Source: a candidate division TA06 bacterium B3_TA06 (GTDB lineage Bacteria > Hydrothermota > Tepidihabitantia > B3-TA06). From it: a stretch of DNA of 64,000 nucleotides. The translations under genes were made by a program, and so were the position numbers. Each line of letters begins with the position of its first letter. The first letter of the stretch is position 1. The notes under the pieces are model-generated. The model saw only the letters and a program-made list of their open reading frames with translations, was not told the DNA's origin and made no database searches. Shown here piece after piece: positions 27,686-63,344 of the stretch. The stretch is from contig NJBO01000006.1 in assembly GCA_005223075.1 (NCBI GenBank), positions 1-64,000 of the forward strand, in the 5' to 3' direction.

Positions 27686-28192
27686 TCAACCTCCAATAAT
27701 AACGTAGATTGCAAAATACAATCCAATCAATGCTACACCTGCTCCCTCAAAAGCTAAAGAAAACCTTAACAGGTTTGTCTTAGTCTTTAAGGTCTTCTGA
27801 ATTTCTTCACAAGTAGTTCTAATTGAAGCCGCTATCTGTGCTACTGTACCAACTTCTTCCGAATCGAAAGTTTCAGGTTTTCTTTTAATATATTTTTCCA
27901 TAAGAGATTTCGGACTCGGATGATATGCCCATTTCCTTGGCCAAAAAGCAAAAACAGCAAGGATAAAACCAGTTAAAAGAAACAACATAGGAGGTACAAA
28001 TACCCATCTCAGTTCTAACTCACTTAATGCAAATAATGCAACGACTATGGAAACGATAATCCCATCCATTCCCAAAAGAATGACCAGCTTATTATCAATT
28101 GCGTCAATAACTCTTGTCAGGTTAGCCCTCTGTTGACGCAATTCTTCAAGGACCACCACACCGCTTGGGTATAAAGACTTCTTTTCTTCCAC
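27686..28192 (-). CDS. Three-TM protein resembling Pycsar-type effectors
   Basis: 168 residues from GTG 28192. The promoter's -10 box ends 6 nt before this GTG, so longer starts are excluded. An N-terminal helix with IDAIDNKLVILLGMDGIIVS runs into TM1 (about 38-58), TM2 follows (about 63-85, ending FAFWPRKW), then a ~55-residue soluble helical part with KTLKTKTNLLRFS leading into TM3 (about 140-165). The D-x-K before TM1, the P after TM2 and the K-x(n) before TM3 recall the DUF5706/Pycsar effector layout, but this is resemblance only. The gene is AT-rich. Confidence 0.5.
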   Translation of the reverse strand: MEEKKSLYPSGVVVLEELRQQRANLTRVIDAIDNKLVILLGMDGIIVSIVVALFALSELELRWVFVPPMLFLLTGFILAVFAFWPRKWAYHPSPKSLMEKYIKRKPETFDSEEVGTVAQIAASIRTTCEEIQKTLKTKTNLLRFSLAFEGAGVALIGLYFAIYVIIGG

Positions 28193-28198
28193 ATATTT

Positions 28199-28227
28199 AT
28201 TATGCCACTGAAAAGTAGGTTTGTCAA
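28199..28227 (-). promoter_or_regulatory. Leaderless-type promoter of the three-TM protein gene
   Basis: Minus strand: TTGACA (28227-28222), 17 bp, CATAAT (28204-28199), then 6 nt and the in-frame GTG. No Shine-Dalgarno. Confidence 0.7.
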
Positions 28228-28424
28228 GCCCGTTTCGTCTTCGCATCCTTCGGCTCGCTCACAATGCCACACTCCCCCTACCCTATGGGGTGCAGTAAAA
28301 TTGGCACCCCAAGGGGCACGCTGTCCACAAGGGAGGGGGAATACCGGAAGCTATCCACATAATCCCCAAATTTCCCTTCCCTGGTGGAAGGGGATAAAGG
28401 GGAAGGGGAAAATCAGTCATTTAG

Positions 28425-28452
28425 TTGACATCTCCCACCTGCCGGATAACAT
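28425..28452 (+). promoter_or_regulatory. Promoter of P5C dehydrogenase
   Basis: TTGACA (28425-28430), 16 bp, TAACAT (28447-28452), then a ~35 nt leader with AAAGGAGG before the ATG. The rest of the gap 28228-28424 holds palindromic repeats (AAGGGGCACGCTGTCCAC and a CCTTCCCT...GGGGAAGGGG run) and no gene. Confidence 0.65.
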
Positions 28453-28492
28453 TCCACAAATCAAAATCTAAAAATTAACCAAAGGAGGCACA

Positions 28493-30040
28493 ATGGTTCT
28501 TCCGTTCAAAAACGAGCCATACAAGAATTTTTCCTGCGAGCCGTGCAAGAAAGCCCAACTTGAAGCCATCGCAGCACTTGAGAAAAACTACGGCAAGACC
28601 TACCCGGCGTTCATCGGCGGTAAAGAGGTTGCCGCTTCCGAAACCTTTGCGTCCATCAACCCGGCAGACAAGGACAAGGTTATCGGCCTTTTCCAGAAGG
28701 CGGACGAAAAACTCGCCGAGCAGGCGCTTCAGGCAGCTTTGGCCGCGTTCGAGTGGTGGCGGTTCTACGACTTTCGCGAGCGCGCCAACATCCTTCTCAA
28801 GGCCGCGCACATCGCCCGGCGCCGCCGCTTCGAGATCAACGCGGGCATGATCCTTGAGGAGGGCAAGAACTGGATCGAGGCCGACGTGGACACAGCCGAA
28901 GGCATCGACTTTTTAGAGTTCTATGGCCGCGAGATGCTGCGGCTCGGCCCCAACCAGCCCGTAACACCTTTCCTTGGGGAAAATAACGAGCTTCGCTACA
29001 TCCCCCTGGGCGTGGGCATCATCATCCCGCCCTGGAACTTCCCATGGGCGATACTCGTGGGCATGAGTTCGGCGGCTATCGTGACCGGCAACACCATAGT
29101 GCTCAAGCCCTCGTCGGATTCACCTTACATCGGCTGGCTCTTTACCGAGATCATGCGCGAGGCCGGTCTGCCCGATGGTGTATTAAACTACCTTAGCGGT
29201 CCGGGTGCGATCGCCGGCGAGTATCTGGTCAAGCATCCAAAGACCCGGTTCATCAGCTTCACCGGTTCCAAGGAAGTAGGCCTGCGAATCGTTGAGAACG
29301 CGGCCAAGAAACAGGAAGGCCAGATATGGATCAAGCGGGTAGTGGCCGAGATGGGCGGCAAGGACTGCATCCTGGTAGACGAAGAGGCCGATCTCGACGC
29401 CGCGGTGGAAGGCGTCGCCGTTTCCGCATACGGGTTCGGAGGCCAGAAATGCTCGGCCTGCTCCCGCGCCATCATTGACGAGAAGGTCTACGACGAGTTC
29501 GTCAAAAAGCTTATTCCACGTATCAAGGAGATCACGGTCGGGGAAACCAAGGACACCGCCAACTGGATGGGCCCGGTCATCAACGAGAAGGCTTTGAAGA
29601 ACACGCTGGCATACATCGAGATCGGCAAGAAGGAAGGCGAACTGCTCTGCGGCGGTAATGTTGTCGAGGGCAACGGCTTCTTCCTCGAGCCGACCGTGTT
29701 CGGCAACGTTGCATGGGATGCCCGCATTGCCCAGGAGGAGATATTCGCTCCGGTGCTGGCCATCGTTAAATGTAAGGACTTTGACGACGGGTTGCGCATC
29801 GTCAACTCCACGGAATACGGTCTTACCGGATCAGTGTACACCAACAATCGCTGTAAGATCGCCAAGGCCAAGCGGCTGTTCCACGTGGGGAATATGTATA
29901 TCAACCGCAAGTGCACCGGTGCTCTGGTTGACGTGCAGCCCTTCGGCGGGTTCAACATGTCCGGCACCGACTCCAAGGCCGGCGGCAGGGACTATCTGTT
30001 GCTGTTCATGCAGGGAAAATCGATCGCTGAACGTTTTTGA
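28493..30040 (+). CDS. rocA: L-glutamate gamma-semialdehyde (1-pyrroline-5-carboxylate) dehydrogenase
   Basis: 515 residues, full length. The aldehyde dehydrogenase fold is shown by IIPPWNFPWAILVGM, FTGSKEVGLRI, VVAEMGGKDCILVDEEAD (catalytic Glu) and FGGQKCSACSRAI (catalytic Cys near 322). FIGGKEV and the ending VDVQPFGGFNMSGTDSKAGG match the RocA/PutA P5CDH branch. It oxidises glutamate semialdehyde to glutamate with NAD+ in proline or arginine use. No proline dehydrogenase is nearby, so its substrate source is not shown here. It stands alone with its own promoter. Confidence 0.93.
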   Translation: MVLPFKNEPYKNFSCEPCKKAQLEAIAALEKNYGKTYPAFIGGKEVAASETFASINPADKDKVIGLFQKADEKLAEQALQAALAAFEWWRFYDFRERANILLKAAHIARRRRFEINAGMILEEGKNWIEADVDTAEGIDFLEFYGREMLRLGPNQPVTPFLGENNELRYIPLGVGIIIPPWNFPWAILVGMSSAAIVTGNTIVLKPSSDSPYIGWLFTEIMREAGLPDGVLNYLSGPGAIAGEYLVKHPKTRFISFTGSKEVGLRIVENAAKKQEGQIWIKRVVAEMGGKDCILVDEEADLDAAVEGVAVSAYGFGGQKCSACSRAIIDEKVYDEFVKKLIPRIKEITVGETKDTANWMGPVINEKALKNTLAYIEIGKKEGELLCGGNVVEGNGFFLEPTVFGNVAWDARIAQEEIFAPVLAIVKCKDFDDGLRIVNSTEYGLTGSVYTNNRCKIAKAKRLFHVGNMYINRKCTGALVDVQPFGGFNMSGTDSKAGGRDYLLLFMQGKSIAERF

Positions 30041-30163
30041 CGTTCTGCGATAATGCAAAGTGTAAAAGGCAAAATGCAAAGTGCACACGAAGTGACGACA
30101 CTGAGCCTGCCCCTTGAGATGCTAACTTTACTGCATCTCATAGGGTATGCGTAGTAAATTGAA

Positions 30164-30186
30164 GGGCCGGCGAAGCCGGCCCTTTT
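30164..30186 (+). terminator. Rho-independent terminator after P5C dehydrogenase
   Basis: GGGCCGGC, loop GAA, GCCGGCCC, then TTTT. It ends 2 bp before the next -35 box, isolating the two transcripts. Confidence 0.85.
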
Positions 30187-30188
30187 GT

Positions 30189-30216
30189 TTGACATTGAAC
30201 AATTAATCGCTATATT
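30189..30216 (+). promoter_or_regulatory. Promoter of PQQ-like lipoprotein 1
   Basis: TTGACA (30189-30194), 16 bp, TATATT (30211-30216), AAAGGAGG and GTG at 30233. Confidence 0.85.
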
Positions 30217-30232
30217 TCAGAAAGGAGGCTTA

Positions 30233-31453
30233 GTGAAAAGGACCCTGCTTTTATTTCTGGGATTAGTATTAACTATCGGAATCCTCGGATGCAAAGAGAA
30301 AGTTGGGGAGGACGATCGCCTAATATGGAAGTATAAGATTGGAGCGCTCTGCAAATCCTGCCCGGCAATAGACGAAGAAGGCACCATATACATAGGATCG
30401 GGAGATAATTACCTTTACGCGATAAACACAGATGGAACCCTCAAGCAGATGTGGGAAACCAGTGGCTGCCCAGCTTCACCGGTAATAAGTCTAAATAAAA
30501 TCATATATGTCGGATGCGACGATGGGGATATTAATGCAATCCAAATAGGCCCACCCGATCCAGAAGATACCTTAAAACCCGTGAGTTTTTACTACCACAC
30601 CAACTATAAACCCGGCTATGATGTCTCCTATTCGCCAGCCATTGGAGAAGACGGAACAATATACATGGTTCGGTATTATTACGGAGATTCTTATCTGTAT
30701 GGTTCATACGAACAACTTTGTCGTTTAGGGGGCTATCCCACCCAATCTTCCCCAAGTATAGGTTCGGATGGCACAATCTATATTGAGAAGGAGTATAGCT
30801 TTTGTGCGATAAATAAAGATGGTAGTTTGAAGTGGGGATACAAATTGCCGAAAGACGAAACCAAATACAGCTCACCTTCTCCAGCGGCAATAGGTGCTGA
30901 TGGCACAATCTATTTGGGATTAGGGGGCTCCCTCTATGTCCTTACCAGGAACGGCAACCTGAAATGGAGGTATAGAACCGGCTATGCAATCAATGCATCC
31001 CCTGTAATCGACAAAGCTGGGAATATCTATGTTGTTTCCGGGACTGACTGCCTCCTGGCTATCACTCCCAGAGGTAACCTCAAATGGAGGCATGAGTTTG
31101 AAGGATACATCTCCACTCCGGTGATTGGTTCGGAGGGTACCATTTACCTAGTAGAAAACAGGAAAAACATTATATGGTTTACCACATCCTTCCGCATCAA
31201 AGCTCTGCTTCACGCAATCAATTCCAATGGTAGTCTCAAATGGACATACAATGTTAGATCTGAGTGTCGACATATTACTAGATATTCCGACACGGAGATT
31301 AGCGAACCAACCATCGGCTCGGACGGCACCCTCTATTTCTCCTTTGGCAAATATCTATACGCAGTTAAGAGTGACTCAAAAGGTTTAGCCAATTCCTCTT
31401 GGCCAAGACAAGGACACGATAACCAGAATACCGGACGCGTAAACGCGCCTTAG
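30233..31453 (+). CDS. PQQ-like beta-propeller lipoprotein 1
   Basis: 406 residues from GTG 30233 (AAAGGAGG 5 nt upstream; the promoter excludes the longer frame). Signal peptide ending in the lipobox ILGC. The mature part has about eight repeats of the form P-x-I-x-x-D-G-T-I-Y-x-G...L-Y-A-I-N-x-D-G-x-L-K-W (for example SIGSDGTIY, KDGSLKWGYKLP), the PQQ-like/YncE type blade. C-terminal WPRQGHDNQNTGR closes the repeat. Surface or periplasmic scaffold; enzymatic PQQ binding is not implied. A paralog follows. Confidence 0.8.
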   Translation: MKRTLLLFLGLVLTIGILGCKEKVGEDDRLIWKYKIGALCKSCPAIDEEGTIYIGSGDNYLYAINTDGTLKQMWETSGCPASPVISLNKIIYVGCDDGDINAIQIGPPDPEDTLKPVSFYYHTNYKPGYDVSYSPAIGEDGTIYMVRYYYGDSYLYGSYEQLCRLGGYPTQSSPSIGSDGTIYIEKEYSFCAINKDGSLKWGYKLPKDETKYSSPSPAAIGADGTIYLGLGGSLYVLTRNGNLKWRYRTGYAINASPVIDKAGNIYVVSGTDCLLAITPRGNLKWRHEFEGYISTPVIGSEGTIYLVENRKNIIWFTTSFRIKALLHAINSNGSLKWTYNVRSECRHITRYSDTEISEPTIGSDGTLYFSFGKYLYAVKSDSKGLANSSWPRQGHDNQNTGRVNAP

Positions 31454-31549
31454 GCGCTCATTGTAAATCTCAAATTGCAAATTTTAAATTTAGGGGGCTT
31501 GGCCTGCTTCCCTTATTTATTTTCCCACAGGACAACGTTTCTTGTAGAT

Positions 31550-31577
31550 TTGACAACAATATAAACTTGTGTATATT
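31550..31577 (+). promoter_or_regulatory. Promoter of PQQ-like lipoprotein 2
   Basis: TTGACA (31550-31555), 16 bp, TATATT (31572-31577), then AAAGGAGG. The -10 box and spacer length are the same as at 30189, suggesting the promoter was duplicated with the gene. Confidence 0.85.
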
Positions 31578-31593
31578 TCCCAAAGGAGGAATG

Positions 31594-32778
31594 ATGAAGA
31601 GACTATTCTCTCTAAGTATGGGATTGCTTCTTGTCATAGGCTCAATCTCATGCCAACAGGATATCAGATTAAAGTGGAAATTGAAGTTAGGTCCAAGATG
31701 CACCCCTCCGGCAATAGCTAAAGACGGCACCATATACGTGGCCTGCGAAAACGGAGGGCTATACGCTGTTAACTCAAGCGGTGAAATCATATGGCAGGAT
31801 ACTATTTATTCCGCGAGATTTAAAAATCTCGCGATTGGAGAGAACAGTAGACTGTATGCGGGAACAAAAGATAATTCAATATATGCTGTAACTCATCACA
31901 GAAAATTCAATCCCGAGGATACAAGCCAAGTTGGTTTACCGTTTTATGATACTAAAGATAGATATAGTCACCCTGCCTATCTCGCTCTCGCAAAAGATGG
32001 AACAGTATTCATGGCTATATATTGGAGACTTATTGCACTGGACACATCATACTATGATTTTGAACCAAGATGGGTTTTTAATTCCCCAGAACTGGGTCGT
32101 TTTGAATGCCCGCCGGCAATAGGAATGGATGGCACTATCTATTTAGGCTCAACTGACGGAAAGCTGTATGCGCTTAATCCTGACAGTACGCTCAAATGGG
32201 AATTTGAGACTGATGATAACATTTCCTCATCCCCTGTAATTGGTGCTAATGGTACATTATATCTAGGGTCTTCTGATAGCTGTTTCTATGCAGTAAATCC
32301 TGATGGAAGTCTAAAATGGAAGTTCAAAACAGGCAGTTTCATCTTCTCTGCAGCCGCAATAGGAGAAGATGGAACAATATACTTCGGTTCTGAAGACAGG
32401 CACATATATGCTTTAAGCGAAGGCGGGAAACTCAAGTGGCGTTATAAAACGGACATCTGGGATTTCTCATCCCCGGTAGTAGGTGCAGATGGTGTAATAT
32501 ATATAGGCCCCGGAGAGGGATGTTCTCTCTTGAGATTAATCAGTAACTTCCGCCTTAGGGGAAAACCATTTATCTATGCAATCAACCCTGATGGAACCCT
32601 TAAATGGAAATACAGAGTGAGATCGAACATAAGTGACCCGACACTAGGGGCGGACGGTACGCTCTATTTCACCTGTTCAAAACACCTTTATGCGCTCCAA
32701 ACCGCTTCTCCAGGCCTTGCTTCCTCCCCCTGGCCCAAGTTCGGTGCCGATAACCAGAATACCGGACGCGTGCAGTAG
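31594..32778 (+). CDS. PQQ-like beta-propeller lipoprotein 2
   Basis: 394 residues; two ATGs follow GGAGG and the second (31594) has the better spacing. Signal peptide with lipobox GSISC. Repeats such as GMDGTIYLGSTDGKLYALNP and GANGTLYLGSSDSCFYAVNP build a PQQ-like propeller; WPKFGADNQNTGR ends it, nearly as in the preceding gene. It is a diverged tandem duplicate of 30233-31453 with its own promoter. The gap between them holds an AT-rich TTGCAAATTTTAAATT repeat, which occurs again after this gene. Confidence 0.8.
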   Translation: MKRLFSLSMGLLLVIGSISCQQDIRLKWKLKLGPRCTPPAIAKDGTIYVACENGGLYAVNSSGEIIWQDTIYSARFKNLAIGENSRLYAGTKDNSIYAVTHHRKFNPEDTSQVGLPFYDTKDRYSHPAYLALAKDGTVFMAIYWRLIALDTSYYDFEPRWVFNSPELGRFECPPAIGMDGTIYLGSTDGKLYALNPDSTLKWEFETDDNISSSPVIGANGTLYLGSSDSCFYAVNPDGSLKWKFKTGSFIFSAAAIGEDGTIYFGSEDRHIYALSEGGKLKWRYKTDIWDFSSPVVGADGVIYIGPGEGCSLLRLISNFRLRGKPFIYAINPDGTLKWKYRVRSNISDPTLGADGTLYFTCSKHLYALQTASPGLASSPWPKFGADNQNTGRVQ

Positions 32779-32879
32779 CACGCGCATTTCAAATTGCAAA
32801 GTGTAAATTGCAAATTTTAAATTGGGATCAGGAAGGAGTTTTCAACTAGCCGCCCATTTGCAATTTCCCCCTTGTCTCC

Positions 32880-32907
32880 TTGACATATCCTTTAGCGCCG
32901 TTAAGAT
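32880..32907 (+). promoter_or_regulatory. Leaderless-type promoter of the GWxTD gene
   Basis: TTGACA (32880-32885), 16 bp, TAAGAT (32902-32907). ATG codons begin 4 nt and 7 nt downstream (32912, 32915). No Shine-Dalgarno is present. Confidence 0.65.
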
Positions 32908-32911
32908 ATAG

Positions 32912-34057
32912 ATGATGCATCTGTTACTGTCTCTGGCGCTGCTCTCACAGACAGGCGAGGCAGAATACAGCTTCCGCCACGTGATCGAGCAAGGCGAACG
33001 TGACGGCTCGTTCTATGTTACCGCCTACGTCTCTATACCCTACTCAAGCCTTCAGTTCACAAAGTCTAACTCAGGCTACCAAGCGGGCTACCACATAACC
33101 TTTCAGCTTCTGGATCGCCGCAAGAACATCTACGGAGACGAGCGCTTCGGTGATGTAATTGTAACGGACGCCAACATCGCCAAGTCGAAAAGCCTCGCGG
33201 TAGCAGAAACCCTTAATGTCCTTCTGCCCCGGGGAAGCTACAATGCCAATCTAAGCGTAGCCGCCCTGGGTGCAACAAGACGAATCGAGAAGGAGTTTGA
33301 TGTCGAGATCTTCCATCGGGCACTGGGAAGCCTGCGGATTACCGACGCTAATGGTAGCCGTATGCTTGAGCGCCCCTTTGACAGCCGCGACACCATGCTG
33401 GTGAGTGTGTCGGTGTATGAAGATGGTCTCGATTCGCTGCTTCTCGAGATTACGCGTCCGGGCGCCCCAGACTACAATAAAACCCTGACCGAACCTGACT
33501 CACAAGCATCGTGGAGTGTTGCACTTGAGGATTTCTCAAGCGGAGACTACCAGCTTTGGGTGAAGGCATTTCAAGGTAAGAAGGCAGTAGACGAACGCAA
33601 GGCTCTATTCGTCCTGCGCAATCCGTTTCGCTTCGACCCTGGGCGCTACGAGGAACTCGTTGAGAAGCTTATATACATAACGACCTTCGGTGAACGTGAG
33701 CGAATGAAGTCCGTGCCGCCTGAAGCAAGACAGGCCACCTGGGATAGCTTCTGGCTAGCAAAGGACCCAACCCCGCAAACCGACTATAACGAAGAGCTTG
33801 AGTCCTACTTTGCCAAGATCTCCTACTGCGAGCGCAACTTCGGATACGGGGATAAGGGCTACCTCTCGGATCGTGCCAGGATATACATGAGGTTCGGCCC
33901 ACCGGACGAGATCGAAGACCATCCATTTGAGCCTAACAGATACCCATACATCGTTTGGACCTACAACCTTCAGGGAATGCAGTTCGTATTCGAAGAAAGG
34001 CTCGGTTTCGGCGAGTACGTGCTTGTTTATCCACAAGGCTTCCTTTCCCCATGGTAG
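32912..34057 (+). CDS. Exported GWxTD-domain protein
   Basis: 381 residues; the second ATG (32915) is an equally good start given the 7 nt distance from the -10 box. A short signal peptide (MHLLLSLALLSQTGEA) is followed by beta-rich domains. The C-terminal ~110 residues contain WDSFWLAKDPTPQTDYNEEL and GYLSDRARIYMRFGPPDEI, the GWxTD domain (here GYLSD) found in secreted proteins of the FCB group and Acidobacteria. Role unknown. Its end overlaps the next gene. Confidence 0.8.
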   Translation: MMHLLLSLALLSQTGEAEYSFRHVIEQGERDGSFYVTAYVSIPYSSLQFTKSNSGYQAGYHITFQLLDRRKNIYGDERFGDVIVTDANIAKSKSLAVAETLNVLLPRGSYNANLSVAALGATRRIEKEFDVEIFHRALGSLRITDANGSRMLERPFDSRDTMLVSVSVYEDGLDSLLLEITRPGAPDYNKTLTEPDSQASWSVALEDFSSGDYQLWVKAFQGKKAVDERKALFVLRNPFRFDPGRYEELVEKLIYITTFGERERMKSVPPEARQATWDSFWLAKDPTPQTDYNEELESYFAKISYCERNFGYGDKGYLSDRARIYMRFGPPDEIEDHPFEPNRYPYIVWTYNLQGMQFVFEERLGFGEYVLVYPQGFLSPW

Positions 34058-34776: not shown

Positions 34777-35064
34777 CAGAGGTTCCCAGTTATCGGACAA
34801 AATAAACACTTGCGACGGCCGGCCGCGAGCCCGACGTTCAACCTTATCAAGATGTATGCTGGACGACTTGACGGGTTCGACGAGATAAGGAATCTTGCCC
34901 GCTGGCTTTATTCATCCGAGATCGTGAACTACGCAACATTCCTCAAAGCTGGCCGTGTGTCGGGCAAATCCCAGGGAGCCTTAGGATCCCCTGGATGGTA
35001 AAACAGCCGTGAGCCGTCAGCGGTAAGCTGTGAGCCGGAAGCCGTATACCCCTGACGGTAAAAC
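34777..35064. other. Gap with a possible gene fragment and short repeats
   Basis: A frame from ATG 34852 to 35001 gives 49 residues (starting MYAGRLDGFDEIRNLARWLY) with coding-like composition but no Shine-Dalgarno and no recognised family; it may be a relic. From 35000 to 35060 there are GTGAGCCGTCAGC/GCTGTGAGCC repeats like those at 1810 and 2135. Confidence 0.3.
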
Positions 35065-35092
35065 TTGACAGACACCACGGCTGGTCTATACT
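35065..35092 (+). promoter_or_regulatory. Promoter of the exported protein at 35111
   Basis: TTGACA (35065-35070), 16 bp, TATACT (35087-35092), AAAGGAGG, ATG 35111. Confidence 0.85.
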
Positions 35093-37072: not shown

Positions 37073-37540
37073 CTATTCAAGCAGGACGGCGGCCATGGCT
37101 GAGATGCCCTCTTTGCGGCCAACGAACCCCATACCCTCCCCCCTCTTTGGCTTTATTGCGATGTTGGTTGTGGGAATACCCAGGATTCCTGATATGCGCT
37201 CACGCATCTTATCCCGGTAAGGAACCAGCTTAGGTTCTTCGGCGAGCACGGTGCAGTCAAGATTGACGATACTGTAACCTTGTTCCCGTACCAAAACCAC
37301 TACTCTCTCAAGGAGCGCGGTGCTGTCAGCGTCTTTGTAGGCTGGATCGGTGTCAGGAAAGAGTTCTCCGATGCTTGGAAGCCCTGCCGCGCCGAGGAGC
37401 GCATCGGCTATCGCGTGAAGTAGAACGTCTGCGTCCGAATGGCCCGAAAGACCCCGGTCGTAGTGTATCTTTACCCCGCCGATTACCAAGGGTCTATCCT
37501 TAACAAGAGGATGAGAATCGAAACCGAACCCTACTCGCAT
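37073..37540 (-). CDS. ispF: 2-C-methyl-D-erythritol 2,4-cyclodiphosphate synthase
   Basis: 155 residues, standard. GFGFDSHPLVKDRPLVIGG supplies the metal ligands DxH, GLSGHSDADVLLHAIADALLG the third His and active loop, and IKPKRGEGMGFVGRKEGI the C-terminal signature (usually KATTxExxGF). It makes the cyclic diphosphate of the MEP isoprenoid pathway. It has a consensus promoter with the -10 box 6 nt before the ATG and no Shine-Dalgarno, so it is probably leaderless. Confidence 0.95.
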   Translation of the reverse strand: MRVGFGFDSHPLVKDRPLVIGGVKIHYDRGLSGHSDADVLLHAIADALLGAAGLPSIGELFPDTDPAYKDADSTALLERVVVLVREQGYSIVNLDCTVLAEEPKLVPYRDKMRERISGILGIPTTNIAIKPKRGEGMGFVGRKEGISAMAAVLLE

Positions 37541-37546: not shown

Positions 37547-37575
37547 ATTATAGGAATAATAGAGGCCGGTGTCAA
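37547..37575 (-). promoter_or_regulatory. Leaderless-type promoter of ispF
   Basis: Minus strand: TTGACA (37575-37570), 17 bp, TATAAT (37552-37547), six bases, ATG (37540). Both boxes are perfect consensus. Confidence 0.85.
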
Positions 37576-37624: not shown

Positions 37625-37672
37625 TCTTTATCGGGGTCCCCATGCGCTCGCTACGCGAGCGCATGGGGCACT

Positions 37673-37711
37673 AAAAAAACCCCTGGAGAGGCAGGACGCA
37701 CTCTCCAGGGG
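37673..37711 (-). terminator. Strong rho-independent terminator
   Basis: An 11-bp perfect stem (37680-37690 with 37701-37711), 10 nt loop, then T7 on the minus strand. It can end both the candidate small RNA and the phoU transcript. Confidence 0.85.
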
Positions 37712-38517: not shown

Positions 38518-39633
38518 TTACCTCCTAAGAAGTAAAATCAACCCAACAGGGATGATCACAAAGATAACTGCAATGTAGACAAAAGCAAGCCAGCGGCGGT
38601 TCGCAACACTTTTCCCTACCAACCTCGCAAGGGTAAGTGGCACTATCTTCAACGGATACCAGATGGCTATCCCGAAGATGTTAAAAATAAGATGAGCGAA
38701 CGCAACCTGTATTGCAAAAGGCGAACCGGTTACCAACGCAGCAAGGATTGCGGTAACCGTCGTCCCCACGTTAGCCCCAAGGGTGTAGGGAAATATCCGT
38801 TCAAGCGCAACAAGACCCGCACCCACAAGAGGCACGATGAAGGATGTAGTCACAGATGAAGACTGAATTACAGACGTGATTACCAAACCCAAGAGAAACG
38901 CACGCACCGCCCCACCGAAGAGATAGCGGTCTATCACAACCTCGGTCTTGGAACCCACAAGCTTACGCATCGTATCAACCATGAACTTAAGCCCGAAGAA
39001 GAGGAAGACAAGAGCTATAGGTAGACTGAAGTAGACCTTTGAGCCAACCAGATGGATAATCGCTTTAGCCACCGGCTTCACCGCGATCTGCAAGGGACCC
39101 AACACCTTGAAGCCGCCTATCCCGGTAAAACCCTTGGCAAGAAACCCGGAGACGTATCCAATAGGATGCAGGAATATCTCCAGCGGCAGGAGGACCGCCA
39201 CGGCAAGGATATTAAAGATGTCATGAACCATCGCTGCGGGGAAGGCCCTGGTGAACTCATCCCTTCGCGAGACGTGGTAAAGTGAAACAAGTGCGTTGGT
39301 GATTGTGGTACCTATGTTGGCTCCCATGATGATGGGTATGGCGTGTTCCACTGAAAGCGTCCCTGCAGCAACAAAGCATACAACCAGCGAGGTGGTGGCT
39401 GAGGAACTCTGAATAATAACGGTGACAAGTATACCTATAAACAGACCCGTTACTGGATTTCTAGTCATCGTTATGAGCAGCTCGGCAAAGGGCATCCCAA
39501 GGAGCTTGAGTGAGCCGGAGATCATCTCGATGCTTAAAAGAAACGCATAGAGTGCTGCAACAAATATAACTATCCGCAGAGCACGTTTCAAGACACGGGG
39601 GGGCTTTCTTTCCGGTGCCAGGGATTCACTCAA
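38518..39633 (-). CDS. Na+/phosphate cotransporter (PNaS/NptA family)
   Basis: 371 residues with about nine membrane helices. Two inverted-repeat halves each carry the QSSS motif: GILVTVIIQSSSATTSLVV near residue 60 and LVITSVIQSSSVTTSFIVPL near residue 255, with GANIGTTITNALVS and GANVGTTVTAILAA following. It imports (or exports) phosphate with Na+. It overlaps thpR by 8 nt and precedes phoU, giving a thpR-nptA-phoU transcript. Confidence 0.92.
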   Translation of the reverse strand: MSESLAPERKPPRVLKRALRIVIFVAALYAFLLSIEMISGSLKLLGMPFAELLITMTRNPVTGLFIGILVTVIIQSSSATTSLVVCFVAAGTLSVEHAIPIIMGANIGTTITNALVSLYHVSRRDEFTRAFPAAMVHDIFNILAVAVLLPLEIFLHPIGYVSGFLAKGFTGIGGFKVLGPLQIAVKPVAKAIIHLVGSKVYFSLPIALVFLFFGLKFMVDTMRKLVGSKTEVVIDRYLFGGAVRAFLLGLVITSVIQSSSVTTSFIVPLVGAGLVALERIFPYTLGANVGTTVTAILAALVTGSPFAIQVAFAHLIFNIFGIAIWYPLKIVPLTLARLVGKSVANRRWLAFVYIAVIFVIIPVGLILLLRR

Positions 39634-40168
39634 GTTTGAACTCCTCTACGATTTTATAGATGGGTCCATTTGGGGTAAGGGTGCTTTGATAGAGGGTGAA
39701 GCTGGAGGCAGTAAAGGAGAGCCCTTCCGGTAGAGTGAATGAGTCAAGCCGAAGCGGTGAAGGATAGCGAAGACGAGCAAGCGTAATGTGTGGATGGTAG
39801 CGTCTTTTCTCCGATTCGAACCCTTGGCCCACCAAACATCCCTCAAGGCGATTAAACAGATTACTGGATTCTTCTGCCCCCTCTGAAAGTCCCCACCAGA
39901 ACACACGGGCGCGCCTGGGATTAGGAAACGCTCCTAGTGATCCAAGCACCATCCGGAATCCCTCCAGACCTGATGCAGTCTCGCGCGCCGCTCCAATGAT
40001 AGCAGTCAGTCTGGTTTCTTCCACCTCTCCCATGAATCTCAGCGTGATGTGGAGGTTCTTCTCTTCCACCCACTTCATGCGGGGAAGCCGAGTCCTCAAA
40101 GTTTCTAAAAAATCACCAACCTGTTTGCGGATGTCTGGGGGCAGCCCTATGCCAAAGAAAACCCTCAT
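39626..40168 (-). CDS. thpR: RNA 2',3'-cyclic phosphodiesterase
   Basis: 180 residues from ATG 40168, where the family N-terminus MRVFFGIGLPPDIRKQV begins. The two catalytic HxTx motifs are HITLRFMGEV (near 43) and HPHITLARLR (near 125). It hydrolyses 2',3'-cyclic phosphate ends of RNA. The start lies 7 nt after a TATACT -10 box without a Shine-Dalgarno, so it is probably leaderless; a longer frame to 40222 would run through the promoter. Confidence 0.92.
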   Translation of the reverse strand: MRVFFGIGLPPDIRKQVGDFLETLRTRLPRMKWVEEKNLHITLRFMGEVEETRLTAIIGAARETASGLEGFRMVLGSLGAFPNPRRARVFWWGLSEGAEESSNLFNRLEGCLVGQGFESEKRRYHPHITLARLRYPSPLRLDSFTLPEGLSFTASSFTLYQSTLTPNGPIYKIVEEFKLE

Positions 40169-40175: not shown

Positions 40176-40203
40176 AGTATAACCCTGCGCCTGCGGATGT
40201 CAA
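40176..40203 (-). promoter_or_regulatory. Leaderless-type promoter of thpR
   Basis: Minus strand: TTGACA (40203-40198), 16 bp, TATACT (40181-40176), seven bases, ATG (40168). Confidence 0.8.
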
Positions 40204-44515: not shown

Positions 44516-45244
44516 TCAAACTTTCTTTCCCATAAGGTGCCCCATCTCTCTTACCGCCTGCCTAATACCTACCTTCAGTGCCCGCGCCACGATCGTAAAG
44601 CCTATTGAAGCGCCGACTATCTCTTCTATCTCCATGAGCGGCGCGATGTTATCGTAGTCGAGCGCGTGCCCGACGTGCGCTTCAATACCCAATGTGTTGG
44701 CGAACCCTGCCATCTTACGGAAAGACTCGATGAATTCAAGATAACTCCCAGAGCCGCTGGGATACGCTCGTGCGTAATGATCGGTGTTGAACTCGACCCT
44801 CTTGGCCCCGAGCTTTTGGGCAAGCTCTATCATCTCCTCGGCGGCCTCGATGAAGACCGAGAGACGGATACCTGCGCCGGTGATGCGTTCAGCATAGGGC
44901 TTGACATCCTTAAAGCGCGCCCGCAGATCAAGACCGCCCTGGGTAGTAACCTCTTCCGGACGTTCGGGAACCAGACTCACCTGGTGCGGCTTGATCTCAA
45001 GTGCGATCCGCGTCATCTCTTCAGTGGCGGCCATCTCCAGATTAAGCTCGCCGCTGATCGCCTCCTTTAGCCGACGGACGTCAGCCTCCTTTATATGCCG
45101 ACGGTCACAGCGCAGATGACAGGTTATACCGTCAGCCCCGCCTGTCTCGGCTTCCAAAGCAAACTCAACCGGGTCAGGAAAACGCTCGCGCCGAGCCTCG
45201 CGCAGGGTGGCGATATGATCCACGTTGACACTGAGCTCACGCAT
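44516..45244 (-). CDS. pdxJ: Pyridoxine 5'-phosphate synthase
   Basis: 242 residues from ATG 45244, where the conserved RELSVNVDHIATLREARRE begins. GGADGITCHLRCDRRHIKE, NLEMAATEEM, TTQGGLDL, RVEFNTDHYA and HAGHALDYDN-like EAHVGHALDYDN are PdxJ hallmarks. It condenses aminoacetone phosphate with deoxyxylulose phosphate to form PNP. A longer start at 45280 is the -35 box itself, so the gene is apparently leaderless with 7 nt from -10 to ATG. Confidence 0.95.
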   Translation of the reverse strand: MRELSVNVDHIATLREARRERFPDPVEFALEAETGGADGITCHLRCDRRHIKEADVRRLKEAISGELNLEMAATEEMTRIALEIKPHQVSLVPERPEEVTTQGGLDLRARFKDVKPYAERITGAGIRLSVFIEAAEEMIELAQKLGAKRVEFNTDHYARAYPSGSGSYLEFIESFRKMAGFANTLGIEAHVGHALDYDNIAPLMEIEEIVGASIGFTIVARALKVGIRQAVREMGHLMGKKV

Positions 45245-45251: not shown

Positions 45252-45280
45252 AGGATACTTGCAAAAAGGGAGTATGTCAA
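45252..45280 (-). promoter_or_regulatory. Leaderless-type promoter of pdxJ
   Basis: Minus strand: TTGACA (45280-45275), 17 bp, TATCCT (45257-45252), seven bases, ATG. Confidence 0.75.
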
Positions 45281-51656: not shown

Positions 51657-51684
51657 TTGACTACGCCCGTTTTTTGAATAGGAT
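51657..51684 (+). promoter_or_regulatory. Leaderless-type promoter of the methyltransferase
   Basis: TTGACT (51657-51662), 16 bp, TAGGAT (51679-51684), five bases, ATG (51690). Confidence 0.6.
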
Positions 51685-51689: not shown

Positions 51690-52346
51690 ATGAGAGATGC
51701 GGCAAGCAGAGCGGATTCCGACCCTCAAGCAGGCAGGCAAAAAAGGGCTATCCCTGATCTATTTCTGTTGCAGTACCTTCCTATAGTTCCGCGGGGGATA
51801 GCACTCGATCTGGGCGCTGGCAACGGTCGCAACAGCCTCTTCCTGGCCGAGCACGGCTTCGAGGTGGATGCATTTGACCGCGACGCCGAATCAGTAGCAG
51901 AACTTATGAGGGTAGCCCAGGAGCGGAATCTGCCTGTCAGGGCGATAAGGAACGAACTCACCACCCTCACTATTCTGCCCAAACGCTACTCGCTCGCCGT
52001 AATCGCCTGGGTGCTGATGTTTTTAAGGCGAGGCGAACGCGATGGACTGGTTAAGATGGCCATTCGAGGGCTCCTGCCTGGCGGATTCGTCTACCTTGGG
52101 GTGTTTTCTACCCAGGACCCTGGATACGCTCTGTGTAAGGAAAAGTTCGAGGAGATCGAAGAACGCACCTTCTTCGTGCCCAAACGCAAGATGACCATGC
52201 ACTACTTCCTCCCGGAAGAGGCCAAAGCGCTCCTGGGGGGCCTTGATTTGATCGCCTTCAAAGAAGGCTACGAGATGGACATAGGCCACGGCGATCCTCA
52301 CCATCATGGCCGCATAGAGGTAATCGCCCGTTTGCCCCAAAAATAG
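51690..52346 (+). CDS. Class I SAM-dependent methyltransferase (TehB-like)
   Basis: 218 residues. ALDLGAGNGRNSLFLAEHGF near residue 35 is the SAM-binding motif I, EVDAFDRDAESV the acidic strand 2 end, and YSLAVIAWVLMFLRRGE the motif IV region. It is closest in style to TehB/small-molecule methyltransferases. A late HGDPHHHGRIEVIAR motif is also typical of that group. The substrate is unknown. Apparently leaderless. Confidence 0.8.
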   Translation: MRDAASRADSDPQAGRQKRAIPDLFLLQYLPIVPRGIALDLGAGNGRNSLFLAEHGFEVDAFDRDAESVAELMRVAQERNLPVRAIRNELTTLTILPKRYSLAVIAWVLMFLRRGERDGLVKMAIRGLLPGGFVYLGVFSTQDPGYALCKEKFEEIEERTFFVPKRKMTMHYFLPEEAKALLGGLDLIAFKEGYEMDIGHGDPHHHGRIEVIARLPQK

Positions 52347-52376: not shown

Positions 52377-52404
52377 TTGACTCCATCCGAGTAAAATCTA
52401 TAAT
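52377..52404 (+). promoter_or_regulatory. Leaderless-type promoter of fmdB
   Basis: TTGACT (52377-52382), 16 bp, TATAAT (52399-52404), seven bases, ATG (52412). Confidence 0.8.
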
Positions 52405-52411: not shown

Positions 52412-52639
52412 ATGCCTATAAGAGAGTTCTGCTGCCGCGACTGCGGAGCAAGCTTTGAGTTTCTGATCCTCAAGAAGTCGGACGAGGCTAAGGCAAGTTG
52501 TCCGAAGTGCAAGTCTCGCAATCTTGAAAGATTGCTCTCGGTGTTCGGGGTAGCAGGAGCGGTTGAGAGACCTACGGCATCGGGTGGCGGCGGATGTTCC
52601 ACCTGCTCCTCCAGCGACTGCTCCACCTGCGGACGTTAA
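52412..52639 (+). CDS. FmdB-family zinc-ribbon protein
   Basis: 75 residues. MPIREFCCRDCGASFEFLIL and SCPKCKSRNLERLLSVFG supply two CxxC pairs of a zinc ribbon, the FmdB regulatory-protein family; the C-terminus is Gly/Ser/Cys-rich (GGGGCSTCSSSDCSTCGR), also typical. Role unclear, suspected transcriptional regulator or RNA-associated factor. No Shine-Dalgarno; probably leaderless. Confidence 0.85.
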   Translation: MPIREFCCRDCGASFEFLILKKSDEAKASCPKCKSRNLERLLSVFGVAGAVERPTASGGGGCSTCSSSDCSTCGR

Positions 52640-57262: not shown

Positions 57263-57300
57263 TGGTCTTGCTCTCCTTCAAAGGAAGGCCCTCATTCATA

Positions 57301-58713: not shown

Positions 58714-58721
58714 TTAATAAA

Positions 58722-59789
58722 CTATTCCAGGGATTCTTCAGCCTCGGCGCGCAGGTTCTTGAGATAGGTGCGGGCTGCTGAAGAAAAGGACCCGTCAGGG
58801 TCGACCTCAAGCACCGCTTCGAAGTCGCTGTGTGCGGCATCCATCTGGCCTTGCTCAAGACGTATCTTACCGCGCTCAAGGTAGGCTTCGGCAATCCTGG
58901 AGCGGGCAAGCTCGCTTTCAGGATCCCTCTCAAGTGCTTTTTTGTAGTCGTCAAGTGCGGCGTTGTATTCGGCCTGGTCAAGGTATACCCTTCCCCGGTT
59001 CAGGTAGACGCGGGTGAGGCCTGGATCGAGGAGCAACGCCTTGGTGTAGTCGGCCTCTGCTCTGATTAGATCGCCCATTCTGTAGTAGGCGGTGCCGCGA
59101 TTGTTGTAAGCCATCGCGTAGCCGGGCTTTAGTTCAAGAGCATGTGTATAGTCGGCTATGGCCTCCTCAAGACGGCCCGCATCCGCATGCAGGGCACCTC
59201 GGTTGTTATAGGTCAGGGCCGAGCCCGGATCAAGCTCTAAGGCCTGATCATAGAACTTCAAGGCCTCCTCGCCTGCACCTTCGTATTCCGCGCACAGTGC
59301 AAGGTTAAGGTATATCTCCGGGTTCTGGGAATCAAGCTTGAGAGCCTTCTCATATATCAGTCGTGCCTGGTTGTAGTTCTCCTTCTTGAAGTAGACGTTG
59401 CCCAGGTTGTTGTGGTAGTCGGCCCTTGTCGAATCGAGCCTTATAGCCTGCTCGAAGTCCAGCCTTGCCTGATCCAGGGCCTTCATGTGCATGTAGGTGG
59501 TGGCGCGATTGTGGTAGTAGACCGCGTCCTTCGGGCTAAGTCCTATCGCCTTACTGAAGACGGCGGCTGCGGCCTCGTAGTCGGCGAGCGCGTCGTAGGC
59601 CAACCCCATGCGGTTGAATGGCTCGGGCTTCTGGGGCTTCTTCTCGGTATATTCCTTGTATAGCTCGGCGGCTTTGGCGTAATCTCCCTCTTCTAGAGCC
59701 GTATCTGCATCGCGGATCAACCGCGGGGTGCAGCCGAATAACGTAAGGGCAGCGGCTAAAAGACCCGCCATATAAAGAAACTTCTTCAC
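58722..59789 (-). CDS. TPR-repeat lipoprotein
   Basis: 355 residues from GTG 59789 (GGAGG six bases upstream). The signal peptide ends in the lipobox TLFGC. About nine tetratricopeptide repeats follow (for example YNNRGTAYYRMGDLIRAEAD and NLGNVYFKKENYNQARLIYE). As first gene of the glycosyltransferase operon it may organise the complex at the membrane. The C-terminus ends in a charged helix. Confidence 0.85.
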   Translation of the reverse strand: MKKFLYMAGLLAAALTLFGCTPRLIRDADTALEEGDYAKAAELYKEYTEKKPQKPEPFNRMGLAYDALADYEAAAAVFSKAIGLSPKDAVYYHNRATTYMHMKALDQARLDFEQAIRLDSTRADYHNNLGNVYFKKENYNQARLIYEKALKLDSQNPEIYLNLALCAEYEGAGEEALKFYDQALELDPGSALTYNNRGALHADAGRLEEAIADYTHALELKPGYAMAYNNRGTAYYRMGDLIRAEADYTKALLLDPGLTRVYLNRGRVYLDQAEYNAALDDYKKALERDPESELARSRIAEAYLERGKIRLEQGQMDAAHSDFEAVLEVDPDGSFSSAARTYLKNLRAEAEESLE

Positions 59790-59819
59790 GATCAACCTCC
59801 GGGTTTTCTTGTTTGCTAA

Positions 59820-59847
59820 ATCATACAGAGAGTTTGAGAGGTGTCAA
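59820..59847 (-). promoter_or_regulatory. Promoter of the TPR-glycosyltransferase-oxidase operon
   Basis: Minus strand: TTGACA (59847-59842), 16 bp, TATGAT (59825-59820), then GGAGG and the start at 59789. Confidence 0.8.
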
Positions 59848-59880
59848 CTCTTAAAACCATGCCCCAACCGAACCAACCCC

Positions 59881-59909
59881 TTGACAAGGCCCCAAAAACT
59901 GGATAATAT
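59881..59909 (+). promoter_or_regulatory. Promoter of the FN3/PPC lipoprotein
   Basis: TTGACA (59881-59886), 17 bp, TAATAT (59904-59909), then a ~65 nt leader ending in AAGGAGG before ATG 59981. It is divergent from the TPR operon promoter 34 bp away. Confidence 0.8.
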
Positions 59910-59980
59910 CAATGGATCGGATGTTTCTTCTAAAGATTGAGAAGCAACCGTACTTTTTACAAACCAACCAAGGAGGAGTA

Positions 59981-61117
59981 ATGGGACTATCCAAAAGGTT
60001 GCCGCTACTTGTGGCATCTATCTTTCTTTTAGGGGGACTACTTCTATCCCTAAGCTGCACAAGCAACAATCCACCGTTGGTTCCGTCAGACCCACAGCCG
60101 AGCGACGGCGCTGGGGGTCAGCCGAGGAGCTTGACGCTTCACTGGAGCGGAGGGGATCCCGACCCGGAGCTTCCCTATTATGACGTTTATCTGGGAACCA
60201 CAGATCCCCCGCCCCTTAGAGAGGTCAACCTCATAGAAAAATACTGCGAGATCAGCGATCTTGACTCCAACACCACCTACTACTGGATGATCGTTGCCCA
60301 GGACGAGCAAGGCGACACCGCCGCCGGGCCGATCTGGTCCTTTACCACCACAATGGGTGATTCCTACGAGCCAAACAACTTGTTCGACCAGGCCTACGGT
60401 CCCTTGAGTTTTGGAACGGTCTACGAATCCTGGATCTGGGACTGGGAGGACTATTATGACATCTACTACTTTATCCCGGACTCAAGTGGTATTGTTAAGA
60501 TCGATCTTTACAGCCTGCCCACAGACTACGACCTGGTGCTTTTTGATGAGAACCAGGAGGAGCTTGATTGGTCCAGCAAGTGGGGACCGGCAGATGAATC
60601 GATCTCCTACTACGTCACGGGATCGGAGCTTTACTATGTGGTAGTCATTCTATACGATCGTCCCGACTCCAGAGACTCCTATCTACTGAAGGTAGACTAT
60701 ATCCAAACCCAAGACTCTTACGAGCCTAACGACTCCTTCGATGATGCCTACGGCCCACTGGATTTTGAAACGACCTACGAGTCATGGATATCAACCTGGG
60801 ATGATGTAGACTACTACTACTTTGTTCCCGCAAGCGACGGCTGGATAGGGATCGATCTCTACAGCCTGCCCGAAGACTACGATCTCTACCTGTGTGACTC
60901 CAACTACGATCTAATAGACGCCTCCGAAAATGAATACACTGAGAGTGAATGGATAGAATTCGAGGGGTCGGCTTCCGAGACCTACTACGTGGTTGTGGTG
61001 CCTTTCGAAGGATACGATGCTACTGATTCCTACTACCTGGAAATCTATTATTCTTACGGCTCCGCCCAAACATGGGGCCACACGCACAGGGAGAAAAGAA
61101 ACCTGAAAATCGATTAG
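59981..61117 (+). CDS. Lipoprotein with FN3 and two PPC domains
   Basis: 378 residues from ATG 59981 (AAGGAGG five nt upstream). Lipobox LLSLSC. Residues ~30-125 are a fibronectin-III-like domain (LTLHWSGGDPDPELPYYDVY, TTYYWMIVAQDEQGD). Two bacterial pre-peptidase C-terminal domains follow (about 127-240 and 245-360), each starting DSYEPN with D/F-DxAYGPL and containing IDLYSLPxDYDL. PPC domains usually accompany secreted proteases; here no enzyme is attached, so it may be a carbohydrate- or surface-binding protein. Confidence 0.8.
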   Translation: MGLSKRLPLLVASIFLLGGLLLSLSCTSNNPPLVPSDPQPSDGAGGQPRSLTLHWSGGDPDPELPYYDVYLGTTDPPPLREVNLIEKYCEISDLDSNTTYYWMIVAQDEQGDTAAGPIWSFTTTMGDSYEPNNLFDQAYGPLSFGTVYESWIWDWEDYYDIYYFIPDSSGIVKIDLYSLPTDYDLVLFDENQEELDWSSKWGPADESISYYVTGSELYYVVVILYDRPDSRDSYLLKVDYIQTQDSYEPNDSFDDAYGPLDFETTYESWISTWDDVDYYYFVPASDGWIGIDLYSLPEDYDLYLCDSNYDLIDASENEYTESEWIEFEGSASETYYVVVVPFEGYDATDSYYLEIYYSYGSAQTWGHTHREKRNLKID

Positions 61118-61133
61118 AAAGCATTAATAACCT

Positions 61134-61167
61134 CCCCCTATCTCCGCACGGGGATAGGGGGCTTTTT
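61134..61167 (+). terminator. Rho-independent terminator
   Basis: CCCCCTATC (61134-61142) pairs with GATAGGGGG (61153-61161), then CTTTTT. It ends 24 bp before the next promoter. Confidence 0.85.
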
Positions 61168-61190
61168 AAATATCTCCGGGATGATTATGC

Positions 61191-61218
61191 TTGACAACAT
61201 TCTCCAACTAGCTAATAT
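61191..61218 (+). promoter_or_regulatory. Promoter of the barrel-like protein
   Basis: TTGACA (61191-61196), 16 bp, TAATAT (61213-61218), 79 nt before ATG 61297. Confidence 0.85.
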
Positions 61219-61241
61219 AAGCAACAAATAAATCACTCAAA

Positions 61242-61290
61242 GGATAGAGAAATAATCTCTATCCGTAATAAGGTGAAAACCTTAAGGAGG
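61242..61290 (+). promoter_or_regulatory. Structured 5' leader: two hairpins next to the ribosome-binding site
   Basis: GGATAGAGA/AATAA/TCTCTATCC (61242-61264, nine perfect pairs), five bases, then AAGGT/GAAA/ACCTT (61270-61283, GNRA tetraloop), directly abutting AAGGAGG (61284-61290). Such a leader could stabilise the mRNA or gate initiation. No known riboswitch class was recognised. Confidence 0.55.
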
Positions 61291-61296
61291 AGCCAC

Positions 61297-61995
61297 ATGA
61301 AGAAAGCATTATCGCTAGGATTGCTTCTTATAGGCATGCTGGCGTTCAGCCATGCCCAAGCCAACCTGGTCGACATCGGCATAAACCTTGGCAGGGATTA
61401 CGTTGTAAATTATGTCATTGGACCGGTAACCTACTGGTCTCAACCTACCATAACAGCCTCCCCCTTCCATGTGGGGCTGGTCTTCGCGGTCTCACCTGTC
61501 AAAGGATTTAAACTGGGAGTGCGCGGCGGCTACTCGAACAAGATATTAACCAGAGAATTTAACTCTGTCTCCGATTACTTAGACAGCTGGGAGGAAGAAA
61601 TCACCATCCACGGCGGGATGGGTGAGTTCAGGATACTGGGTGAGGCCCCCATAGGCGGTGAACTGGCTTTTCTTTACGGTGGATTAGGACTAGGCTACTA
61701 CAATTACTTCACCGAATACTCAAAGGAAATATACAGTGATCCGACACAGACGGAGTACTCTGAAAGCAACACCCTGGGTTGGGCTCAGACCTTTATTGCC
61801 GGTGCTCATATCGGAATAGTCAAATGGGTAGGATTCAACGTGGAGATTGAGAAGCTGGGATGGCAGTCTCTGCAATATGTAGTCGAAGAAGTCACTGTAG
61901 ATGATGAGAATATTGGCGATTATGAAGGCAGCTATGAGCCTGCAGGTGGACTAGGAGATATAGGCGTCTCGGTTGCTTTGGTTTTCAAGATATAG
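61297..61995 (+). CDS. Exported beta-barrel-like outer membrane protein
   Basis: 232 residues from ATG 61297, six bases after AAGGAGG; the in-frame GTG at 61273 lies inside the leader hairpins. Signal peptide MKKALSLGLLLIGMLAFSHA. The mature part alternates polar and aromatic residues in strands (FHVGLVFAVSPVKGFKLGVR, GLGLGYYNYFTEYSKEIY) and ends in a strand closing with FKI, as outer membrane barrels do. Function unknown. Confidence 0.7.
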   Translation: MKKALSLGLLLIGMLAFSHAQANLVDIGINLGRDYVVNYVIGPVTYWSQPTITASPFHVGLVFAVSPVKGFKLGVRGGYSNKILTREFNSVSDYLDSWEEEITIHGGMGEFRILGEAPIGGELAFLYGGLGLGYYNYFTEYSKEIYSDPTQTEYSESNTLGWAQTFIAGAHIGIVKWVGFNVEIEKLGWQSLQYVVEEVTVDDENIGDYEGSYEPAGGLGDIGVSVALVFKI

Positions 61996-62088
61996 CCGGC
62001 TTGTAAGAGAAACCCTAATCGCCTTACGTTGCCCGGGCAAGCCATTATTGCAATTGGGGCATGGGAACTATAACTTAAGCCGAAACTT

Positions 62089-62116
62089 TTGACACGTACG
62101 GGGTAAGAGATATACT
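62089..62116 (+). promoter_or_regulatory. Leaderless-type promoter of the alkX-like gene
   Basis: TTGACA (62089-62094), 16 bp, TATACT (62111-62116), eight bases, ATG (62125). Confidence 0.8.
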
Positions 62117-62124
62117 GTGTCCCA

Positions 62125-63344
62125 ATGACGAAGATATCCTCGGCACTTGCCAGAAGATTGACCCTGCACTCCCAATTACTGGACGGTCGAACAAAACTGC
62201 CTAAAGGGAAGGAAGGAATAGCCCAGGCTATCGAGAAACTGGGCTACGTTCAGATAGACACCATAGCGGTCATCAACCGCGCCCATCATCATACCCTCTG
62301 GACAAGGCGACCGGACTACAGCCCTGCGATGCTCGATGAGCTTCAGGCCAAGGACCGCCGGGTATTCGAGTACTGGGGACACGCCGCTTCGTATCTGCCG
62401 ATGAAAGACTACCGATACTACATACCCAGGATGCGTGCCTTCCCCTGGGGTGACGGCTGGATCAAAAGGATGCACGAGAGGCATAAAGACGTGATGAAGG
62501 ACGTGCTGGAAAGGATACGCAAGGAAGGTCCTCTGGGCTCGGTGGACTTCAAGGCGCATGATGGCAAGAAGCGCGGGGCGTGGTGGGATTGGAAACCGGC
62601 AAAGACGGCGTTGGAGATGCTTTTCTGGAAGGGAGATCTGATGGTCACCGAGCGCCGCAACTTCCAAAGGATCTATGACTTGACCGAACGGGTGCTGCCT
62701 GGGGGGGGGTAGATACCACGGTTCCAGATCCAGCTGAAGTGGCCAGGTTCAGGGTAAAAAGGGCGCTTTGCGCGCATGGTATAGCCACCCAGCGAGAGAT
62801 CTTAGACCATCTACATATAAGTTCGAAAGAGAAAGTTCCAGATGCTTTAGACGAAATGGTTGATTCGGGAGAAGTAGTCCAGGTAGAAATCGTGGGACTT
62901 GAAGGGATCAATTATTATGTCCTTAGCGATGTTCTGAGAAATGCATCGCGGCTTAGCAAACGCAAACCCCGCCTGCATCTTCTCTCTCCTTTCGACAACC
63001 TGATCATCCACAGACCTCGAACAGAACAACTTTTCGGGTTCTCATACTCACTTGAGTGCTACACTCCCCCTGCCAAGCGCAGGTTCGGCTACTTCTGCCT
63101 GCCCATCCTATGGGGTGAGCAATTCGTAGGAAGGCTCGACCCGAAAGCCGACCGAAAACAAAAGACGCTTGTGGTCCGCAACCTTGTATTCGAGGAGGGG
63201 TTTAAACACTACGAGGGGATTCTTCACTCGCTTGCAGAAAAACTGAAAGCCCTGGCCTCATTCAATAGATGCGAGAAGGTACTGATCGAGCAGACAATGC
63301 CCGGCAAGGTAAAAACTCACTTAAGTAGAACGTTAAGACTTTAA
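62125..63344 (+). pseudogene. AlkX/YcaQ-type DNA glycosylase, frameshifted at a G9 tract
   Basis: Frame one (62125-62712) gives 195 residues with KLGYVQIDTIAVINRAHHHT, the QxD motif region of the HTH_42 family, then WGHAASYLPMKDYRYY. It stops at TAG right after nine G (62701-62709). One extra G would join it without a break to the frame read to 63344 (VDTTVPDPAEVARFRVKRAL onward, ending with FDNLIIHRPRTEQLFGF and GKVKTHLSRTL), giving about 406 residues, the family's usual length. AlkX/AlkZ enzymes unhook interstrand crosslinks or remove alkylated bases. The gene is either off by phase variation, recently broken, or a sequencing error. Confidence 0.8.

Follow-up and report, generated by a model that had tools for sequence, protein, structure and literature searches.

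Probable leaderless genes with near-consensus promoters beside a complete Shine-Dalgarno system in WOR-3 bacteria, with a bias against signal-peptide proteins

Eight genes in the stretch of DNA analysed here have a near-consensus promoter whose -10 box ends only a few nucleotides before the start codon (Table 1). The stretch, hereafter the window, comprises the initial 64 kb of contig C6 in an assembly of 2.41 Mb in 42 contigs (the discovery genome, G000). The nearest named relatives of this genome are metagenome-assembled genomes of Candidatus Stahlbacteria / candidate division WOR-3, with 83-95% protein identity; the NCBI taxonomy now names this group Ca. Stahliibacteriota. The original prediction listed eight promoters placed in this way, named their genes and noted that they have no Shine-Dalgarno (SD) sequence. 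Direct reading of all eight upstream regions agrees with it, Pfam agrees with the protein names, and no SD of at least 5 nt is present at any of the eight genes, the AGGA upstream of the methyltransferase gene being found solely inside its -10 box. The profiles of YgbB (IspF), PdxJ and Zn_ribbon_8 (FmdB) match from residue 1-3 onwards when the proteins are read from their proposed starts. The remaining promoters of the window had been described as mostly belonging to exported proteins and as having leaders of 30-110 nt; the former stands (7 of 12 are predicted to be exported), while the leaders measure about 10-72 nt. Upstream of ispF, a GC-rich inverted repeat at 37639-37690, strong and with a short run of A after it, resembles a terminator hairpin.

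Table 1. Promoters close to start codons in the window and the genes that follow them
Feature	Position	Strand	Details
ispF leaderless promoter	37547..37575	-	TTGACA 37575-37570, N17, TATAAT 37552-37547, 6 nt to ATG; kept in 29/30 class orthologues
ispF (Pfam YgbB)	37073..37540	-	start ATG 37540; profile positions 1-154 on residues 1-154
thpR leaderless promoter	40176..40203	-	TTGACA, N16, TATACT, 7 nt to ATG
thpR (LigT-like phosphoesterase)	39626..40168	-	Pfam
pdxJ leaderless promoter	45252..45280	-	TTGACA, N17, TATCCT, 7 nt to ATG
pdxJ	44516..45244	-	start ATG 45244; PdxJ profile from residue 3
Promoter of gene for protein with three transmembrane segments, leaderless	28199..28227	-	TTGACA, N17, CATAAT, 6 nt to GTG
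Protein with three transmembrane segments, without Pfam match	27686..28192	-	start GTG 28192
GWxTD gene leaderless promoter	32880..32907	+	TTGACA, N16, TAAGAT, 4 or 7 nt to ATGATG (32912/32915)
GWxTD-domain protein (PF20094)	32912..34057	+	signal-like N-terminus; exception to location bias
Methyltransferase leaderless promoter	51657..51684	+	TTGACT, N16, TAGGAT, 5 nt to ATG
Methyltransferase (TehB/Methyltransf_25-like)	51690..52346	+	Pfam
fmdB leaderless promoter	52377..52404	+	TTGACT, N16, TATAAT, 7 nt to ATG
FmdB-type zinc ribbon protein	52412..52639	+	Zn_ribbon_8 profile from residue 1
alkX-like gene leaderless promoter	62089..62116	+	TTGACA, N16, TATACT, 8 nt to ATG
AlkZ-like (YcaQ/AlkX) DNA glycosylase-family protein	62125..62712	+	PF06224

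We show here that this arrangement is not confined to the window. Across the whole genome the strict pattern TTGACA-N15-18-TATAAT-N4-9-ATG has 35 matches and its reversed control none, and the loose pattern TTGACN-N15-17-TANNNT-N5-8-ATG has 342 against 3. When the gap of the loose pattern is set to 11-14 nt, 71 matches are left, some of them promoters already counted that have a second ATG behind them. Perfect TTGACA-N16/17-TATAAT promoters occur 104 times genome-wide, and about a third of them aim directly at an ATG. Gene-level counts were made in 864 kb of G000 (741 genes), relatives likewise being sampled in part, with a gene caller that was self-trained on coding score and ignored the sequence upstream of the start. 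A position weight matrix trained on upstream regions, which promoters without a -35 box would escape, converged on TTGACA, a spacer of 16 nt (78%) or 17 nt (21%) and TANNNT, with 276 promoter-led genes in the G000 sample at training. With coding-only starts, a -10 box ends 4-9 nt before the start in 86 of the 741 genes, compared with 0-4 after shuffling and a single case among internal ATGs. Hence, the enrichment expected by the original prediction is strong and lies at exactly this distance. Allowing neighbouring start codons brings the leaderless total to 115 genes (15.5%); nearly all are operon heads (112 are either divergently oriented or separated from the preceding gene by over 60 nt) and only 2 carry an SD of 5 or more nt. 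E. coli, run identically, gave 1 of 166, below its own shuffle, and a Deinococcus deserti plasmid, the intended positive control, did not bring the sigma-70-seeded model to convergence. In the pooled samples, again with coding-only starts, 273 promoters lie at 5-9 nt, about 11 per position at 10-14 nt and about 10 per position beyond, as a flat tail of leadered genes.

Several further properties of these genes were recorded. A pyrimidine at position -1 is found in 61% of leaderless and 41% of SD genes of G000 (p=3e-4), an excess also seen in G006 and f7 and in line with a transcription start at the start codon. Folding of the 5' coding region did not differ. The TTGAC of the -35 box is near-invariant and the 16-bp spacer occurs in about 78% of G000 promoters, families f9 and f5 preferring 17 bp. 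Among the eight samples, non-ATG starts make up 22% of leaderless and 11% of leadered-SD genes, part of which may be false starts.

The behaviour of ispF in relatives is the strongest single test. In 29 of 30 orthologues, which reach down to 44% identity and across the class, a promoter is followed after 5-8 nt by an in-frame start codon (ATG, GTG or TTG). The distance between the start and the conserved core glycine ranges from 2 to 28 codons, and the promoter shifts along with the start, as required if the transcript begins at the start codon. The least certain of the 29 are L081, L085 and L086, in which the promoter is weaker and 21-28 codons separate the start from the core. Conserved protein starts in relatives might have lain elsewhere, which the original prediction had itself named as a refutation; for ispF they are where the promoter predicts. 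Start-tracking was done with ispF and with pairs of reciprocal best hits (pdxJ orthologues were found in 59 of 61 genomes), and between one-to-one orthologues of different families the leaderless mode is conserved beyond chance (odds ratio 5.1, p=1e-4).

Leaderless genes coexist with a complete SD apparatus. The 3' end of the 16S rRNA carries an intact anti-SD (GGATCACCTCCTTT), AGGAGG-N4-8-ATG occurs 629 times in G000 against 135 in the control, ribosomal protein bS21 is encoded in 40 of 41 class genomes, and S1 has six repeats within one 691-aa frame. AAGGAGG leaders are present beside the leaderless genes. The same search did not find bS21 in control genomes of Corynebacterium, Thermus and Deinobacterium.

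The strict arrangement is present in all 41 class genomes searched for it, and the loose search of 65 class genomes returned 81-395 matches against 1-31 in the control. Leaderless genes amount to 380 of 2368 genes (16%) when eight genome samples of six families are pooled. In the loose search most families of the other classes of the phylum are enriched as well. The class of leaderless genes is thus old in the lineage, occurring in every family of the class and in most of the phylum. A loss in the f6 families, suggested by low strict counts, was rejected, as their consensus is TTGACC/TARAAT. Families f22 and f23, of other classes, have no enrichment, but since they are also poor in consensus promoters, this apparent absence carries no information. 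In these families (G092-G103) TTGACA-N16/17-TATAAT is nearly absent, with 0-10 per genome searched, and in G103 AGGAGG before ATG has no excess over the reversed control (456 vs 499). Expression signals in f22 and f23 seem to be different.

The original prediction also held that the two initiation modes are sorted in part by protein location. For this we compared leaderless genes with promoter-led genes that have a leader and an SD, under three definitions of export that are hydropathy rules of our own rather than SignalP; the p-values are descriptive, because results for the first definition were already known when the second and third were added. In G000, 20 of 115 leaderless but 57 of 124 leadered-SD genes encode proteins predicted to be exported (p=2e-6). 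Pooling the eight samples gives 66/380 vs 120/333 under the first definition (Mantel-Haenszel odds ratio 0.38, p=1e-7), and 0.49 (p=0.003) when the discovery genome is left out. The contrast is sharpest for classical signal peptides, with a basic n-region and a hydrophobic core, which are found in 39/380 (10%) leaderless and 116/333 (35%) leadered-SD genes (Mantel-Haenszel odds ratio 0.22, p=2e-14; 0.27 without G000, p=2e-7; 0.25 outside the family of the window, p=1e-6). It depends neither on conditioning on an SD nor on promoter-guided starts (34/284 vs 140/455, odds ratio 0.32, p=2e-8). Proteins with at least three transmembrane segments are not depleted among leaderless genes (odds ratio 2.0, p=0.03), so that the bias concerns exported signal-peptide proteins and not membrane proteins generally. 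Sorting by location thus stands as a partial bias for signal-peptide proteins, seen also in the seven other samples combined, and fails for polytopic membrane proteins. The leaderless GWxTD gene, with its signal-like N-terminus, makes clear that this bias is not a rule. Lysine or AAA at codon 2 was rejected as its cause, lysine at position 2 being equally frequent among cytosolic proteins, and promoter strength did not differ between the modes.

What the bias means is less certain. There are about even odds that it is unrelated to export as such and a by-product of expression level or of lineage-specific gene families, which would concern the sorting only and is compatible with a leaderless class. 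Such a by-product fits three observations: the SD tends to be longer in leadered genes whose product is exported (7-8 nt long in 38/57, compared with 18/67 of the remaining leadered genes), tufA, fusA and rpsL in G012 are leadered with an SD, and SD genes are more highly expressed in M. tuberculosis (PMC3898074). Paralogues as the cause were rejected, however, since the bias survives when one gene per paralogue cluster is counted (18/109 vs 40/105 exported in G000, p=4e-4); moreover, codon adaptation is equal between the modes and polytopic membrane proteins deviate in the opposite direction. The reason that we prefer is that abundant or regulated exported proteins (surface, secreted) may need SD-led initiation, with leaderless initiation serving constitutive cytosolic and inner-membrane proteins. 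As codon bias does not separate the modes, a reason at the level of expression is only plausible. A stronger proposal, that an export-linked constraint divides the modes in WOR-3, signal-peptide proteins needing an SD leader for targeting, timing or regulation and cytosolic and polytopic inner-membrane proteins not, with the division kept class-wide, is tentative, and we rather doubt it.

The existence of the leaderless class itself faces two rivals. The starts may be mis-assigned, with true starts downstream that have an SD, so that the promoter gives an ordinary short leader. The starts of the uncharacterised proteins are putative and a second ATG is near in the GWxTD gene (32912/32915) and in the methyltransferase gene (ATGAGAGATG); nonetheless, we consider this very unlikely, since the IspF, PdxJ and FmdB profiles begin at the proposed starts, the promoter follows the start among ispF orthologues, which largely refutes the idea for this gene, the peak at 5-9 nt arises with coding-only starts and an SD is so rare at leaderless genes. 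That the TA-rich elements are AT-rich or S1-type enhancers instead of promoters, as has been debated for non-SD genes of Bacteroidetes and Cyanobacteria, draws on an AT-rich bias near -20 to -10 that has been read two ways in the literature (PMC5397173), but is hardly credible here, where a near-invariant TTGAC stands 16/17 nt ahead of the -10 box, the same matrix scores leadered promoters of this genome just as highly (18.8 vs 18.6) and the leaderless genes stand at operon heads.

We therefore favour, with a probability of roughly 0.9, a genuine leaderless class, old in the lineage, in which housekeeping-sigma promoters start transcription at the start codon and initiation is SD-free, beside a complete SD system. 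A housekeeping factor of the sigma-70 type would recognise TTGACN-N16/17-TANNNT, transcription would start about 7 nt after the -10 box, that is, at the first base of ATG, GTG or TTG (leader of 0-3 nt), and ribosomes would begin translation directly at the 5'-terminal start codon, with no SD and probably as 70S. Some points weigh against this picture and the sorting attached to it. We infer the mRNA 5' end at the start codon from promoter geometry, and gene starts come from our own gene caller, those of IspF, PdxJ and FmdB being the ones checked singly. The -1 pyrimidine excess was not seen in the f3 samples, and mode switches are common, only 15 of 31 leaderless genes with a sampled orthologue staying leaderless in another family. 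The f3 sample G012 has no export bias under the first definition, and codon adaptation, used as a proxy for expression, shows little codon bias and no difference between leaderless and leadered genes.

Leaderless genes are already known and have been reported in many bacterial phyla since 2011. In the part considered here of their survey of 953 bacterial genomes (of 2010), Zheng et al. (2011; PMC3160421) report TA-led leaderless genes for 207 of the genomes and place TANNNT some 12 bp ahead of the start. WOR-3 shares with such genes the TANNNT signal, the absence of an SD, the mixture with SD genes and partial conservation between relatives; that part of the survey names no WOR-3 genome and gives biases by COG category (fewer in cellular processes and signalling), not signal peptides. 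Three marks of such genes are found here, namely TANNNT about 10-12 bp upstream above shuffle, no SD, and an assigned start (ispF in 30 genomes; the IspF, PdxJ and FmdB profiles). GeneMarkS-2, as cited in PMC9581028, predicted leaderless genes in 21.6% of bacterial species, and the discovery genome fits the description of mixed leaderless and SD genomes given there, differing as a member of an uncultured candidate phylum. Similar in layout are the -10-adjacent open reading frames of Deinococcus-Thermus (PMC12340547): roughly one gene in three has a -10 box at 6-7 bp from its start, and SD genes occur alongside. There, however, the motif is reported to be the -10 element alone, while WOR-3 promoters add a near-consensus -35 and a 16-bp spacer; a -10 box working without a -35 was not seen in WOR-3, where TTGAC is nearly invariant, although our model would miss promoters of that kind. 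No pathway bias is reported for Deinococcus-Thermus, and WOR-3 keeps bS21, which the search did not find in the Deinobacterium and Thermus control genomes. In Mycobacterium about a quarter of primary transcripts are leaderless, with ATG or GTG at the 5' end, and both modes coexist as in WOR-3 (PMC3898074, PMC4633059). No unifying criterion separates leadered from leaderless genes in mycobacteria (PMC4633059), whereas the signal-peptide bias of WOR-3 is clear; its nearest, partial precedent is that 0 of 49 expressed PE/PPE and 4 of 52 type VII secretion genes of M. tuberculosis are leaderless (PMC3898074). Genomes of the Bacteroidetes type have no functional SD motifs, unlike G000 with its AGGAGG excess and intact anti-SD. 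A literature search, with most subscription journals outside it, returned no paper joining "leaderless" and "WOR-3".

What is new is thus the lineage, WOR-3, together with the wide spread within it and the signal-peptide bias. On comparative evidence that is strong, leaderless initiation would extend to a large uncultured phylum, and N-termini in WOR-3 will be set wrongly by gene callers that take no account of leaderless starts. Since bS21, a six-domain S1 and the full SD system are retained, leaderless genes can be abundant without the SD machinery being lost. Why bacteria keep two initiation modes is a general question, for which the preference for SD leaders among signal-peptide proteins, seen throughout the class, offers a concrete regularity.
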